Assembly (NCBI GenBank): GCA_947573605.1
Contig: CANPGM010000004.1
Location: 58,634 to 122,633 of the forward strand
Origin: an uncultured Roseburia sp.
GTDB lineage: Bacteria > Bacillota > Clostridia > Lachnospirales > Lachnospiraceae
Reading direction: 5' to 3'
Length of the DNA: 64,000 nt
Position 1 is the stretch's first letter, and each line of letters starts with the position of its first letter. The notes under the pieces were generated by a model. It was not told where the DNA came from. It saw only the letters and a program-made list of their open reading frames with translations, and made no database searches. Position numbers and translations under genes: made by a program. Positions 28,295 to 47,332 of the stretch are shown in pieces.

Positions 28295-28328
28295 ATTCAC
28301 TCATACAGAAGGTTATCTGTTTCTCACT

Positions 28329-28433
28329 CTTCTTTCATCCAGACTATACTGTCGGCTTCGGAATCGCACCGAATCATGCCTTGCGGCTCGTGGGCTGTAC
28401 CACCGGTAGGGAATCGCACCCTGCCCTGAAGAA
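28329..28433 (-). ncRNA. FMN riboswitch (RFN element)
   Basis: Minus TTCTTCAGGGCAGGGTGCGATTCCCTACCGGTGGTACAGCCCACGAGCC...GATTCGGTGCGATTCCGAAGCCGACAGTATAGTCTGGATGAAAGA upstream of ribD. Confidence 0.97.
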
Positions 28434-28742
28434 ATTATTTGATTTATAAGTATTATATGATTTCGATTTTCGGTTGTCAAGTGTGCTACGTCTCATGTAC
28501 GGAAATTCACGCCTCCGATTTCCAAAAACAAAGCCATGCAAAAACTACACATTCCCTTTGTAACGAAGCTGTTTTGTGCAGGAAAATAAGATTCTTTTCA
28601 TACTCTGTTTCATACCCGTTAGTTCGGTACATGGATGAAATCAGAAGCAGCCTGCAATGAGCCGGGATAGCGATTGGCGGGCGGTTGCACTGCAGCAAAA
28701 TCACTCGGTCAGAACATTGAAAGAATCCATTTAAAACAGCAA

Positions 28743-28782: not shown

Positions 28783-28786
28783 ATAA

Positions 28787-28860
28787 TTGCGGGAGCAGGA
28801 TTTGAACCTGCGGCCTTCGGGTTATGAGCCCGACGAGCTTCCAGACTGCTCCATCCCGCG
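28787..28860 (-). tRNA. tRNA-fMet (CAT), initiator type
   Basis: CGCGGGATGGAGCAGTCTGGAAGCTCGTCGGGCTCATAACCCGAAGGCCGCAGGTTCAAATCCTGCTCCCGCAA; C1-A72 mismatch and GGG/CCC anticodon stem; CCA not encoded. Confidence 0.95.
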
Positions 28861-28927
28861 AGATTTCTTTCTGATAAACCAGATCAATTGAGAGTATTAT
28901 AGCCGTTTCCCTATCATTTGTCAAATT

Positions 28928-29452
28928 TTACATCATACCGGCTAATACCACGCTCGCCGCCGTTCCCGCCAGCGTAGCGAGAAGCGCGCCCCAAAGAGTA
29001 TAACGGCTTTTCTTTATTTTTACGGACATAAAATAGACTGACATAGTGTAAAAAATTGTTTCCGTACTGCTTAGCAGAATCGAAGCGATTCTTCCGTAAT
29101 AAGAATCCGTACCAAATTCTTTGTAAATATCGAGCAGCAGGCTAGTTGCCGCGGACGAGGAAAACATTTTTACAACCGAGAGCGGAAGCAGCTCCGACGG
29201 AAAATGAATCAGATTCGTCACTCTGCCAAACAGTCCCGAAATAAAGTCAAGAAAACCGGACGCGCGCAAAATTCCCACCGCTACCATAAGACCGATCAGC
29301 GTCGGCATAATTCCAATTACCGTATGAAAGCCGTCTTTTGCGCCGTCAATAAATTCCTCATAGACATTCTGACGGTTTAAAATCCCATAACCCACTATGA
29401 CAAATATTAAAATCGGAATCGTTACATCCGACAGGAAGATTAGAAATTTCAT
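28928..29452 (-). CDS. spmB: Spore maturation protein B
   Basis: FLIFLSDVTIPILIFVIVGYG..SGLFGRVTNLIHFPSELLPLS. Confidence 0.85.
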   Translation of the reverse strand: MKFLIFLSDVTIPILIFVIVGYGILNRQNVYEEFIDGAKDGFHTVIGIMPTLIGLMVAVGILRASGFLDFISGLFGRVTNLIHFPSELLPLSVVKMFSSSAATSLLLDIYKEFGTDSYYGRIASILLSSTETIFYTMSVYFMSVKIKKSRYTLWGALLATLAGTAASVVLAGMM

Positions 29453-29477
29453 AGTATGCCGCCGTCATTCGGAATTA

Positions 29478-29487
29478 TTATATTCTA
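29478..29487. repeat. Direct repeat copy 1 flanking inserted cassette
   Basis: TTATATTCTA, also at 31734-31743. Confidence 0.4.
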
Positions 29488-29619
29488 TTCAAAAAAAACG
29501 GAAAATAGACCTGAACTTTTTCCCTCAGAATCAGTCTCATTCGCGATTCTCAGAGCGCAGGCACTTACGCTAAATTACTTTATAGCAGAGGATCTGCCAC
29601 ATTTCTGATACTTTCCTTT

Positions 29620-30276
29620 CTATTTACTCTCCAATAATTTCATCAGCATGGAGGGGTATGATATATATCCCCCTTTGTTTTTATAACAATATATATCATA
29701 TGGCGGTTTACTTCCCCTTATTTCTGCTTTTTTACATTTATTATCAGGTTTTATAATGCAAAAAAGCATAAACATATCTTTCACACTTTTTCTTTTAACG
29801 CTGATCGCCATCAACCTCTGACAAAGTGCTTTTAAATCTTTATTATTCAACGCTGGAAGTGTTTTATCCGGCGCTCCTGCAATAGCGGCAAATACATAGT
29901 CTCTATTATTAACATATTTAAATGCTTGCGGATATTCCACCTGATCTTGAAAATATTGTATACTTTTTATAATCTGCTTTATAGAATGTCTTGCTTCCTT
30001 AGGATTTCTGGTTCCTTTTAATTCTATAATCCAGGTAATTTTCAGTCCCATACTGTTATCTTTTATTGTATATACCAGATTGTCACATATAAACTCTCCT
30101 TCAGATAATCCTGTTATTAATCCACCGTCTACCTGTACAATTTCAACTGAATTCCCAGTGTCAATCTGTATTGGTACCCATGCTTTACTCTTATGTTCTA
30201 TATCATCAATTACATATTTCTGCCCCTCTGTCTGATTAGTGATAAATGACTCCTTATGCCTTTTGTTTATTGCCAT
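29620..30276 (-). CDS. Uncharacterised 218-aa protein with PD-(D/E)xK-like D...ExK signature
   Basis: CDNLVYTIKDNSMGLKITWIIELKGT (D65, E85xK87); partner of ATPase in insertion. Confidence 0.55.
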   Translation of the reverse strand: MAINKRHKESFITNQTEGQKYVIDDIEHKSKAWVPIQIDTGNSVEIVQVDGGLITGLSEGEFICDNLVYTIKDNSMGLKITWIIELKGTRNPKEARHSIKQIIKSIQYFQDQVEYPQAFKYVNNRDYVFAAIAGAPDKTLPALNNKDLKALCQRLMAISVKRKSVKDMFMLFCIIKPDNKCKKAEIRGSKPPYDIYCYKNKGGYISYPSMLMKLLESK

Positions 30277-30285
30277 ATTTATTCC

Positions 30286-31632
30286 CTATTCTTTATCCAA
30301 TTCAATACCATATAATGCTGTGTATAATTCATTTACCTGCAATGATACATCATCAATTAAATTTGATTCTATTTCCCTTTCCTCCTCATCCAGTAATTTA
30401 ATATAATGCTGTTCTTCAAGTACACTATTTGTAAGCAACTTATATGCCGAAAGCTCTCCTTTTTTAATTATATAATTTTTATTCAAAACCTTATAAACCT
30501 CTTTAGCCTGCCCATCCTCTGCCAATACGCCCGCGTAATATAAATTATTAGCAACAGTAAGAATATAAGGGCTGTGCGTTGTAATAAATACGCCTCTATC
30601 CTGCATATTGGTAAATAAGGTGATAAACTCCATTACCTTTTTTTGGAGTAATGGATAAATATGCGCCTCCGGTTCTTCAATAATTAAAAATACATTTTCT
30701 TCCCGCAACATTAAAACATACATAAAATTCAAAAGCCATAAAATTTCCTGTTGTCCTGACGACGCAAAATTAATTGCTATCGGATGCTCAGCATCTTCTT
30801 CTATTTTCAGGAATTCCCTTCCTCCGTTATAAAAATATTCTCCTTTTTCAATGTTTACAATAAAATCCGTTATATTTTTAACATCAAAAAATCTTTTTTC
30901 TACAGGATAAAAAAGGTGCGCTTTTCGCACGCCATTTCCAAAGCTATTACGGACGCTGTCAATTAACATCATAAACACGTCTGTAATAAGATCAAGATTA
31001 CCGGCATTATTCATTATCGCACGATTATTTGACATTACTGTCAAAAGACTTCGTCCTGCAGGGATATAATAAGTTTCCTTATTATCACAGAAAATCTCAT
31101 TCACTTTATGAATTATTATTTCATGATTCCTTTTTCTTTCTTCATTTGTAAGAACAAGACTGGCTTTGACCACCCCTTCATTACTATAATACATTTCCCG
31201 TATTTCCATTTGCAGCTTTTTAATCGAATTTAATAACTTCGGCGAATAGGTCACGCTTATATACTGCTTGTTTTTATCTCCTCTTTTCAATTTCACTTGT
31301 ATCCAAATGTCTGACGCATAATCATATTTCATATAAAATTCAGGATTTAAATCCCAACTATATCCAAACAACTTTATAAAGATATTCTTCAGTTCTGATT
31401 TTATTGCCTTATCAAACCAAACATTCTGCTGTGAAACACTATTATAAGAATTCGAATCATATACTTGTGTCAAATAGTCAATAATTTTGGTTTTAACAGT
31501 TTTAAAATAATAAACACTTTTGGCAACAGTGCTTTTACCTGTTGCCTGCTCCCCGATTAATAAATTGAATTTCTCAACTTCCATCTCAAAATTCTTTATT
31601 GGTCCGTTATTTCTGATATATATTTTTTGCAT
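30286..31632 (-). CDS. AAA/ABC-type ATPase (OLD/AAA15-like), putative defence ATPase
   Basis: Walker A LLIGEQATGKST; signature-like FASSGQQE; Walker B VFLIIEEPEAHIYP; FITTHSPYIL; start MQKIYIRNNGPIKN. Confidence 0.8.
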   Translation of the reverse strand: MQKIYIRNNGPIKNFEMEVEKFNLLIGEQATGKSTVAKSVYYFKTVKTKIIDYLTQVYDSNSYNSVSQQNVWFDKAIKSELKNIFIKLFGYSWDLNPEFYMKYDYASDIWIQVKLKRGDKNKQYISVTYSPKLLNSIKKLQMEIREMYYSNEGVVKASLVLTNEERKRNHEIIIHKVNEIFCDNKETYYIPAGRSLLTVMSNNRAIMNNAGNLDLITDVFMMLIDSVRNSFGNGVRKAHLFYPVEKRFFDVKNITDFIVNIEKGEYFYNGGREFLKIEEDAEHPIAINFASSGQQEILWLLNFMYVLMLREENVFLIIEEPEAHIYPLLQKKVMEFITLFTNMQDRGVFITTHSPYILTVANNLYYAGVLAEDGQAKEVYKVLNKNYIIKKGELSAYKLLTNSVLEEQHYIKLLDEEEREIESNLIDDVSLQVNELYTALYGIELDKE

Positions 31633-31670
31633 CCTTATCACTCCATTACGAATAAGCTTATTATTGTAAT

Positions 31671-31700
31671 ATTGTACCATGAAGTTTTAAATGCATACAA
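31671..31700 (-). promoter_or_regulatory. Putative promoter of the ATPase cassette
   Basis: Minus TTGTAT-18 bp-TACAAT. Confidence 0.5.
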
Positions 31701-31733
31701 TAACTAATAGCAGCCAAATAAAAAAATTATGGC

Positions 31734-31743
31734 TTATATTCTA
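31734..31743. repeat. Direct repeat copy 2 flanking inserted cassette
   Basis: TTATATTCTA, also at 29478-29487. Confidence 0.4.
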
Positions 31744-31752
31744 ACAAAAATA

Positions 31753-32457
31753 TTATTTTCTCCGCCCCCTGTCCTTTAGCTTACAAAACACCACAGCCAC
31801 ACCAGTACTCACCGCCGTCGCTACAATCGCCGGACCAACGATTTCTGTTGGATTCACACTACCATACTGTTGGCGATAAGCAATGATATTTACGGGTATC
31901 AACTGCAATGAAGAAATGTTTATGATTAGAAAAGTACACATCTCATTGCTGGCAATCCGTTCCTGCTTTTTTTCTTTTCTATCCTCTGCTATCAGTCCCT
32001 CTATCAAATTTTTTCTTCCATACCTGTCTGATTCCCCAACATCTCCGTCTCTGTAAGCCTTCGCAGACAGATACCCCGGCGTCCCCTTCTCTTCCTCCAG
32101 TTCCGCCAGCGCCTCCATCGCCTTTAACCCCGCGGGAGTCGCGGCCCAGCCAAGCCCGAACACATTGGCAATCATATTTGTCGCAATATATTTGTTTGCG
32201 GAATGCCCTTCCGGAATATGCGGAAACAAAAATCTTAAAACAGGTTTTAATTTTCTCGACGCGCCTGCAATAATTCCGCCATTCTCCGCAATCTTCATAA
32301 GACCGACCCAAAAGGACATAATGCCCGTCATCGTAATACAAAGCGTAACGGCTTCCTTTGCGGAGTTTAGCGCTGCCGTCGTAATTTCCGGCAGCGTTCC
32401 GTGAAATGCCCCGTAAATTACGCCAATCAATATCATAATTGCCCAAAGATAATTCAA
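31753..32457 (-). CDS. spmA: Spore maturation protein A
   Basis: MNYLWAIMILIGVIYGAFHGTLPEITTAALNSAKEAVTLCITMTGIMSFWVGLMKIAE. Confidence 0.85.
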   Translation of the reverse strand: MNYLWAIMILIGVIYGAFHGTLPEITTAALNSAKEAVTLCITMTGIMSFWVGLMKIAENGGIIAGASRKLKPVLRFLFPHIPEGHSANKYIATNMIANVFGLGWAATPAGLKAMEALAELEEEKGTPGYLSAKAYRDGDVGESDRYGRKNLIEGLIAEDRKEKKQERIASNEMCTFLIINISSLQLIPVNIIAYRQQYGSVNPTEIVGPAIVATAVSTGVAVVFCKLKDRGRRK

Positions 32458-44293: not shown

Positions 44294-44735
44294 TGTCTGC
44301 GCCTCCTTTTAAAATCTGCCGAAGCTGCTTTGCGTACTTCCGCGAAATCATGACCTGTTCTCCGTTTTCAACTGTCGCACGGATGCGATTTCCAGGTTCG
44401 CTTTTTAAATAACTGATTTTATGGATATTCAGTACCATAGACTTCGAACAGCGGAAAAATCCCCTGCTTTCAAAAAGCAGCGTCAGCTCGGCAAGGCTTT
44501 TATCCACCTTCGCCACTTTATCTCTAAGATAAGCAAACGTCGTTCCATCTACGCTTTCCAGATAAAAAATATCCTCCGGTTTTAAGAGTAACGTCTGTTT
44601 TTCCCAGACTCCGGTCAGCTTTTTTCTGCCTCCCCCGACTATTTCGATGATTGACGCAATCGTTTCATTCATATTTTGGTAGCGGATAACGACTTCGTCC
44701 TCTCCTTCTGCAATTTGGTTCAATGTAAGTTTCAT
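44280..44735 (-). CDS. LytTR-family DNA-binding regulator
   Basis: LKPEDIFYLESVDGTTFAYLRDKV...RCSKSMVLNIHKI. Confidence 0.9.
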   Translation of the reverse strand: MKLTLNQIAEGEDEVVIRYQNMNETIASIIEIVGGGRKKLTGVWEKQTLLLKPEDIFYLESVDGTTFAYLRDKVAKVDKSLAELTLLFESRGFFRCSKSMVLNIHKISYLKSEPGNRIRATVENGEQVMISRKYAKQLRQILKGGADSDEE

Positions 44736-45147
44736 TCGGCCCGTTCTGTTGCCTTTCTATGCGCTTTCCTTTTTTCTTTATTATACCAGACAGTTTGATT
44801 TTCACAATTGCAGACCCGGCAGGATGCACTTTTTTACAGATAAGTTGCTGACGGAATTGCAATGTATTTTTCCTTGTGGACAACTTACAAGGGACTGTCC
44901 AATATTTTCTTCTGAAAACAAATCCTCTGTCTCTGCTTTTCGTTTCAGTGAAAGTGTGTATAAGTGGTTACAGAATTATCAAAAAGAAAAAGTTGAGGAA
45001 TAGCATTTTACAAAATGCGTAAAAATGTAATTCCTTCATTTTATTTGCACAATTTCTGCTATAAGACTTGCATATTCAAGAATAAACAATTATAATCAAA
45101 TATAAATAAGTTAAAACAATTAAAAACACGAAATCGAGGTATTTATT

Positions 45148-45930
45148 ATGTTTATGGAAGAACGACAGAAAGATATTATTCGAAAAATAAACCAAACAGG
45201 ACGAATCCTGGTATCAGAAATTCAGGAATGTTATCAGATTTCGGCGGATTGTGCAAGGCGGGACTTAAAAGTATTGGAAAGTAAAGGATTGCTGCAGAGA
45301 ACACATGGGGGCGCCATTGCAGTTCATCCGAAAGAAAGATACCCTGCGCCGACATATAATCCAATAGATATAAAAGAAATAAAGACTGATTATCTGGCAG
45401 TTGCCAAAAAAGCAATCGAATATATTCAAAACAAGGAGGTCATTTATATTACCACGTCTTTAGTCGGATATTATATGGCTGAAAACTTACCGGAAGACAT
45501 AACCATTACAATATTGACAAATTCCGTTACCATTGCAGAGGTGTTGCGAAAAAAAATAAATATCTCCATTATATTATTGGGCGGAGAAATGTCCCATCGT
45601 GGTCACTGCCATGATTTTTATACCATTCAAATGGTAAAAAATATCCGCATGGATAAAGCGTTTTTATCGCACGCGGCATTGTCTTTGGATTTTGGAGCCT
45701 CCATTCATGATCCCGCCGGTGTGGAATTTGGAAAAGCTGTTATGGAGAACAGCAGGATGAATATCGGGCTATACCCGTCTAAGAAGATAGGAAAAAATTC
45801 CATCCATTCTGTATGTCAGGTAAAAGATTATGATTTACTGATTACGGATGATAATGTATCTGAGGATTTTCTGATACAGGTAGGGGAACTTGGTGTGGCT
45901 ATAGAAACAGTTCATTTGAAGGGGGTATGA
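45148..45930 (+). CDS. DeoR-family transcriptional regulator
   Basis: RQKDIIRKINQTGRILVSEI..CARRDLKVLESKGLLQRTHGGA. Confidence 0.9.
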   Translation: MFMEERQKDIIRKINQTGRILVSEIQECYQISADCARRDLKVLESKGLLQRTHGGAIAVHPKERYPAPTYNPIDIKEIKTDYLAVAKKAIEYIQNKEVIYITTSLVGYYMAENLPEDITITILTNSVTIAEVLRKKINISIILLGGEMSHRGHCHDFYTIQMVKNIRMDKAFLSHAALSLDFGASIHDPAGVEFGKAVMENSRMNIGLYPSKKIGKNSIHSVCQVKDYDLLITDDNVSEDFLIQVGELGVAIETVHLKGV

Positions 45931-45933
45931 AAA

Positions 45934-46551
45934 ATGTATTGTATATTAGTGACAGGTATTCCGGCAGCAGGAAAAAGCGTTATGGCAGAAGTCCTGTCAA
46001 AAAGGTTGAAACTGCCTGTTATTTCAAAGGATACCGTAAAAGAATTGCTGTTTGACAATGTTGGTTTTCAGTCGAGAGCAGAAAAAGTGAAACTTGGAAT
46101 TGCCAGTATGGAAATCATGTATTATGTTGCAGGTCAGCTTATGAAAGCAGGGCAACCTTTTATCTTGGAGAATAATTTTGAATTTTCGTCAGAACATGGA
46201 ATGAAAAATCTTTTAGAAAACTATCAATATTCCGCATTGACCATTACCTTAACAGGTGATTACAAAGCGATTTACCAGCGTTTTCTGGAACGGGAAAACA
46301 GCCCTGACAGGCACAGGGGGCATGTTGTGAATGACTGTTATCCGGAAAAGAAAGAGGATAATCGAAAGGCTCTAAAAGCAAAAACTATTTCTTATGAAAA
46401 CTTTGTTCGTGGAATAGAACAAAGGGGATTTGATGCCTTGTGCGTTGATGGCAGGCAGATTAAGGTTGATACAACAGATTTCTCAAGAATTAATATGGAA
46501 GAGTTATTTTCACGGATTGAGGCGTGGAAGGAGGAAATTCTGCATGATTGA
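45934..46551 (+). CDS. P-loop kinase (AAA_33/zeta-like fold)
   Basis: ILVTGIPAAGKSVMAEVLSKRLKLPVISKDTVKE. Confidence 0.8.
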   Translation: MYCILVTGIPAAGKSVMAEVLSKRLKLPVISKDTVKELLFDNVGFQSRAEKVKLGIASMEIMYYVAGQLMKAGQPFILENNFEFSSEHGMKNLLENYQYSALTITLTGDYKAIYQRFLERENSPDRHRGHVVNDCYPEKKEDNRKALKAKTISYENFVRGIEQRGFDALCVDGRQIKVDTTDFSRINMEELFSRIEAWKEEILHD

Positions 46552-47332
46552 CGCGCATGTTCATCTGGAAAAAGGCGATTATTCGGTAGAATGGATCAAC
46601 CAGTTTGTTTCGTATGCCGTAAAAAGAAATATAGACGAAGTTTACTTTTTGGAACATACCCATATCTTCAAAGAATGCCGTAATCTCTATAATGAAATGT
46701 CTGTATATAATGAATATCAGAAGAATTGGTATCAGAAAAAATGGGAACAGGCACGTCCTCTAAAGGATTATATAGATTACATAGAAAAATTAAAACAAAT
46801 AGATTTCCCGATACGATTAAAATTTGGTCTGGAAGTATGTTATTCTCCTGAGCATGAAATTGACATTGCACAAATGAAACAAATGTATTCCTTTGATTTT
46901 TTAGTAGGCTCAATCCATTTTATTGATGGATGGGCATTCAGTCATCGGAAACAGCGGTGGGACAGGAACGATTATGATATGGATGAACTGTACGAAAGGT
47001 ATTACGCACTTATGCTGTCATTAATTAACAGCCGATTATTTTCAGGATTGGCACACCCACAGTCATTACAATGTTATGGGGCATACCCGCAAAAGGATTT
47101 TAGACATATTTATTTACAGCTTGCACAAGCGCTTTGTTTAAATGATATGTATATTGAGGAAAGCAGCGGATTGGCGATTAATTATGGCGATAAGCAGTTG
47201 GGAATGAATGCGGATATGTTGGAGTGCATGGTAAGGTGTAATGTGCCAATTCTGACAGCATCAGATGCACACTCGCCACAAAATGTTGGCTTATATATTA
47301 AAGAAATGAACGACTTGATTCAATCTGTATAA
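46544..47332 (+). CDS. PHP-domain phosphoesterase (histidinol-phosphatase-like)
   Basis: MIDAHVHLEKGDYS; FLEHTHIF; GLEVCYSPEHE; GSIHFI; SDAHSP. Confidence 0.85.
   Translation: MIDAHVHLEKGDYSVEWINQFVSYAVKRNIDEVYFLEHTHIFKECRNLYNEMSVYNEYQKNWYQKKWEQARPLKDYIDYIEKLKQIDFPIRLKFGLEVCYSPEHEIDIAQMKQMYSFDFLVGSIHFIDGWAFSHRKQRWDRNDYDMDELYERYYALMLSLINSRLFSGLAHPQSLQCYGAYPQKDFRHIYLQLAQALCLNDMYIEESSGLAINYGDKQLGMNADMLECMVRCNVPILTASDAHSPQNVGLYIKEMNDLIQSV

Follow-up and report, generated by a model that had tools for sequence, protein, structure and literature searches.

The 64-kb stretch of DNA analysed here (the window) contains an AT-rich cassette of two genes, an ATPase (gene A) followed by a small predicted nuclease (gene B), lodged between spmA and spmB. 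An earlier note on this sequence had put the pair forward as a candidate new anti-phage system, and the locus raises two questions: whether the pair is new or belongs to a described kind, and how its two products might act together. The arrangement of the locus, in order of coordinates, is as follows.

28928-29452, minus strand: spmB-like gene (Gate domain), downstream flank
29620-30276, minus strand: gene B, predicted PD-(D/E)xK-type nuclease, 218 aa
30277-30285, minus strand: spacer of 9 bp between the stop of A and the start of B
30286-31632, minus strand: gene A, OLD/AAA_15-type ABC ATPase, 448 aa
31633-31752, minus strand: AT-rich intergenic sequence separating spmA from gene A, in which any promoter is unproven
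31753-32457, minus strand: spmA-like gene (Gate domain), upstream flank

The two open reading frames, the gap between them and the motifs read off by the earlier note are all present in the sequence, and the position between spmA and spmB is confirmed by the SpmA/SpmB Gate domain found in both flanking products. The description of the operon as 'divergent', if orientation was meant, does not apply, because spmA, A, B and spmB all lie on the minus strand. The ribosome-binding site of B (TAGGGAATAAATATG) overlaps the stop codon of A, and a GGAG ribosome-binding site stands about 8 nt before the ATG of gene A at 31632, with an alternative in-frame ATG upstream that would lengthen the product to 464 aa. 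Homology between the region upstream of A and the related copy in a second genome of the genus (G058) ends at approximately 31720. The pair had also been credited with its own promoter; the hexamers TTGTAT-18-TACAAT do occur, at about 31700-31671, but they are no evidence of a promoter, since the -35 element has only 3 of 6 consensus bases and promoter-like sites are as numerous in the stretch as in shuffled sequence (13 against an expected 12.2).

The AT-richness of the cassette, reported from the start, is pronounced. Its GC content is 0.32, where 2-kb windows of the whole stretch have a median of 0.447, and no other 2-kb part of the 64 kb is as AT-rich; from its flanks it differs by about 12 points. 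Related loci behave similarly, with the cassette below its flanks in GC content in 52 of 54 cases and a mean difference of 10.6 points. The neighbourhood in the window consists of housekeeping genes and is not a defence island; a search for repeats at the cassette ends returned none that were convincing, and there is no integrase-like ORF in the 64-kb stretch.

The ATPase and its predicted nuclease partner

The product of gene A carries a Walker A motif (GEQATGKST, with K33), an arginine at position 194, an ABC-type signature (SSGQQE, S291-E296), a Walker B motif (FLIIEEPEAHIYP, with E319 and E320) and the sequence FITTHSPYIL (with H353); K33, R194, E319, E320 and H353 are among the residues invariant across an alignment of 49 relatives. 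Only a C-terminal helix (424-447) follows the ATPase domain. It matches AAA_15 in Pfam (1e-21) and, among the PADLOC models, AriA, PD-T4-4_A (1.6e-16), PDC-M29A (2.1e-16), NsnB and GajA, of which AriA is the single best, a general match that is common to all such ATPases. Matches to several ATPase models at once are usual within the OLD/AAA_15 superfamily. The AlphaFold model (pLDDT 88, pTM 0.90) finds its structural matches in PtuA of Septu, a retron PtuA, AriA of PARIS and the heads of Rad50 and SMC proteins. The gene is under strong purifying selection, as judged against the intact ATPase of G058, to which it is 74% identical (dN/dS approximately 0.04, with dS saturated).

Gene B encodes the motif CDNLVYTI...WIIELKGT, from which the earlier note had picked D65, E85 and K87. 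These three residues, to which we add Q101, are the predicted catalytic positions, and all four are invariant in 64 aligned B proteins with a mean column identity of 16% (M1 appears on the list too, but only as a consequence of trimming every sequence at its start codon). Searches with B against Pfam, NCBIfam and PDB sequences gave no match of note, those against PDB sequences returning chance matches only, and a weak Pfam match to HTH_44 was discarded as chance; PADLOC offered a single hint, PDC-M29B, which is borderline for this protein (E = 0.0096). Relatives of B match HSDR_N, HSDR_N_2, DUF2726, PDDEXK_9 and NucS_C, restriction-endonuclease-fold families among them. In the AlphaFold prediction for B (pTM 0.76; part of the C-terminus is of low confidence) the elements run strand(D)-strand(ExK)-helix(Q)-strand-helix, and Foldseek places FokI first among its PDB matches (probability 0.96), followed by XPF, BsoBI and Hef. 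These values are modest (best E-value 0.004, with low TM-scores of 0.28), so that the assignment of the fold rests on motif, topology and family matches combined. It agrees with the restriction-endonuclease fold that had been anticipated for B, and the wider proposal, that B is a putative PD-(D/E)xK effector beside an ATPase, is well supported by the invariant residues, the family matches of its relatives, the FokI and XPF matches of its model and a near-universal pairing with A.

Relatives of B were reached through searches with the ATPase. B lies directly downstream of A in 70 of the 80 ATPase loci found in named genomes, which bears out the expected co-occurrence of the two genes, and these pairs occur in at least nine phyla, including Bacillota, Cyanobacteriota, Bacteroidota, Pseudomonadota, Spirochaetota and Synergistota. 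The ten remaining loci comprise two at a contig end, two with remnants of B (L062 and L079) and others with no B or with an ATPase fragment only. Within the order to which the window belongs, A is present in 10 of 392 genomes (its own genome counted), and a small gene with the pattern CD-x(n)-ELK follows A immediately in nine of 12 other loci; B occurs in two of the 195 related genomes searched, again counting its own. The divergence of A is correlated with that of B (Mantel r 0.67, with none of 2000 permutations as high), a value uncorrected for shared species history; the ATPase tree shows that the family has moved between phyla, and joint travel of A and B is therefore the simpler reading of the correlation.

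Around the relatives, defence genes are few, with 14 PADLOC families, nearly all of them single-match, among 141 neighbours counted without a control. B, used as a single-sequence query, had no match among viral contigs, plasmids or phages, and a search of phages with A yielded two faecal scaffolds lacking annotation; of these, L129 has a complete A-B pair. This 'phage' scaffold (MT836320.1, 980-6332) looks like a fragment of bacterial chromosome; its pair is preceded by two genes (541 and 440 aa), and by eye the product of the second looks like a SIR2-type defence protein, without a Pfam match.

Kinship with WonAB, PDC-M29 and other systems

The closest described counterpart is WonAB, reported in 2025 from the WASA-1 prophage of Vibrio cholerae, which combines an OLD-ABC ATPase with a variant PD-(D/E)xK nuclease, resembles PD-T4-4 in organisation and is related to an operon class, 'OLD-ABC ATPase + novel REase', present in 0.96% of bacterial genomes (PMC12137116). 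That class was presented by Krishnan et al. 2020 with Anaerovibrio lipolyticus as an example (cited in PMC12137116) and, as far as it is described there, has the same gene order and domain pairing as the window pair, whose subclade differs in its enlarged nuclease.

WonAB and the window pair share a two-gene operon in which an OLD-ABC ATPase precedes a small variant PD-(D/E)xK nuclease. The residues of WonA (AWB73975) needed for defence (K34, R182, E300 and H333) correspond, by order and kind, to K33, R194, E320 and H353 of A, and the spacing from E to H is 33 in both, a comparison that concerns residue order and spacing only; likewise K71 of WonB (AWB73976) corresponds to K87 of B. The two differ in the size of the nuclease, 16.1 kDa in WonB compared with 218 aa in the window, and in distribution, WonAB homologues having been reported chiefly in Gram-negatives (PMC12137116) and the window pair belonging to the Clostridia. 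WonAB itself, sought in phages and plasmids by means of a proteobacterial relative, was not found there.

The PDC-M29A profile recognises each of the 49 A proteins, and the PDC-M29B profile 40 of the 64 B proteins (E <= 0.001), with the window's own B at the borderline value given above. An ATPase as first gene and a small PD-(D/E)xK partner directly downstream, the arrangement that characterises both the 'OLD-ABC ATPase + novel REase' operons and PDC-M29, are what the window contains. By our reading, WonAB and PDC-M29 would appear to be one family. With 40 of the 64 partners matching PDC-M29B and the published operons showing the same architecture, the proposal of a new system is not supported, also by the refuting condition set in the earlier note, a match to an already named system; the pair is rather a long-nuclease variant in a known and widespread gene-pair family.

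Other systems with a similar ATPase were rejected as identities for the pair. PD-T4-4 of E. coli also joins an AAA_15 ATPase, the PD-T4-4_A model of which is matched by A, to a reported PD-(D/E)xK nuclease, but neither B nor any of its 63 relatives matches PD-T4-4_B. PARIS (AriA/AriB), Septu (PtuA/PtuB) and Gabija (GajA) possess an ATPase fold related to that of A, but pair it with nucleases of TOPRIM-like or HNH type in place of PD-(D/E)xK. B has no match to AriB, the TOPRIM-like effector of PARIS, and carries a PD-(D/E)xK motif instead; it has no match to the HNH protein PtuB and its fold is different. Gabija combines a GajA that includes a TOPRIM domain with the helicase GajB, and A, at 448 aa, has nothing beyond the ATPase domain and helix and no adjoining helicase gene.

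In the ATPase tree the window sequence groups with G058, L059, L019, L021 and L022 (support 100) and then with L020 (support 98). The nucleases of this subclade measure 169-218 aa, the truncated G058 copy excepted; in the clade next to it, made up of Clostridia and Selenomonadaceae, they measure approximately 140 aa. Selenomonadaceae, the short-nuclease relatives from which stand in that adjacent clade, are the family of Anaerovibrio. The additional length lies in the N-terminal, inter-motif and C-terminal parts. Enlarged nucleases are found elsewhere in the tree (for example L014 and L049), and length alone therefore does not define the subclade; they are also barely detected by standard profiles, so that tools for finding defence systems probably miss part of the family. 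In G058, gene B (L140, G058:C28, 6829-7299) has lost its first ~82 codons, D65 included, for which an assembly error is a possible cause because that assembly is 61% complete.

What remains novel is this subclade, a modest addition, and its location. It is a tentative proposition, which we consider doubtful, that the subclade, with L020 basal, is functionally distinct and that cargo has repeatedly landed at the spmA/spmB junction in the genus; were it true, the added N-terminal and C-terminal segments of B might give it a target unlike that of WonAB, or change how A holds it.

A proposed mode of action

We consider it likely, with a probability of about 0.8, that the pair acts against phages as a module of sensor and effector, of the same kind ('OLD-ABC ATPase + novel REase' / PDC-M29) as that to which WonAB is assigned. 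Anatomy and kinship support this reading well: the analysis shows the structure of the genes, their conserved motifs, the predicted fold of B, the pairing and co-divergence of A and B, purifying selection on A and kinship with PDC-M29, while activation by A, an RNA target, growth arrest and the anti-phage effect are inferred from WonAB. WonAB acts by abortive infection and requires both genes; the toxicity of WonB depends on active WonA, and genomic DNA stays intact while translation stops (PMC12137116). By analogy, A would presumably dimerise through its nucleotide sites and hold the small nuclease B on its C-terminal extension; the sensing of a phage signal by A would then license B, which would cut nucleic acid with D65, E85 and K87. 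If B resembles WonB, it would be more likely to attack translation-machinery RNA than chromosomal DNA, and the outcome would be growth arrest and abortive infection. The pair extends a barely characterised family, one member of which has been studied in depth, into the Clostridia and many other phyla, and identifies the four invariant nuclease residues as targets for mutation.

The same structural evidence might be read in favour of a module directed at DNA, restriction-like or similar to Gabija and Lamassu, in which A would sense DNA ends or structures and B would cut phage or host DNA: the model of B comes closest in structure to FokI and XPF, SMC and Rad50 heads are among the matches of A, and HSDR_N and NucS_C are matched by relatives of B. 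We regard this as unlikely, since WonAB stops translation and leaves chromosomal DNA intact (PMC12137116), and the PD-(D/E)xK fold by itself cannot tell DNA from RNA. Decidedly improbable is a stabilising cassette of the toxin-antitoxin type, with B a toxic nuclease and A its neutraliser, maintained because its loss is costly and contributing to phage defence only secondarily. A compact, AT-rich and mobile-looking operon would suit such a role, as would the survival of an intact A in G058 beside a B deprived of its first ~82 codons and D65, but WonB is toxic only when WonA is present and active (PMC12137116), which excludes simple neutralisation in WonAB. A function linked to sporulation, in which the pair would work with spmA and spmB, is suggested by its position between these genes on the same strand and by the proximity of the G058 copy to spmB, and is most improbable, given that relatives occur in unrelated surroundings and in phyla without sporulation, that nearly all related genomes lack the pair and that its base composition departs so far from that of the flanks.

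The spmA/spmB junction

Outside the window's genus, the other families of the order mostly have spmA and spmB overlapping by 4 bp or separated by a few bases. Some genomes of the window's genus keep this close spacing, and about half of those checked have intervening genes or no spmA nearby; the commonest insert is a response-regulator GGDEF-EAL gene, and SatD with DUF3307 was found once (window 28928-32457; L130-L140). Two members of the genus, the window's genome and G058, have the cassette near spmB. The order in G058 is ATPase, broken nuclease, GGDEF-EAL gene and spmB, and no remnants of a GGDEF-EAL gene were found beside the window cassette. The junction may be a genuine hotspot of integration or simply a site that tolerates insertions.

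Some further features of the window may be recorded. An FMN riboswitch (28323-28437) lies upstream of the rib operon, and a tRNA-Met gene (28786-28861) just downstream of spmB. In a second AT-rich stretch, at 44701-47000, inspection by eye suggests a DeoR-like regulator together with two ORFs, one small and kinase-like and the other PHP-like.
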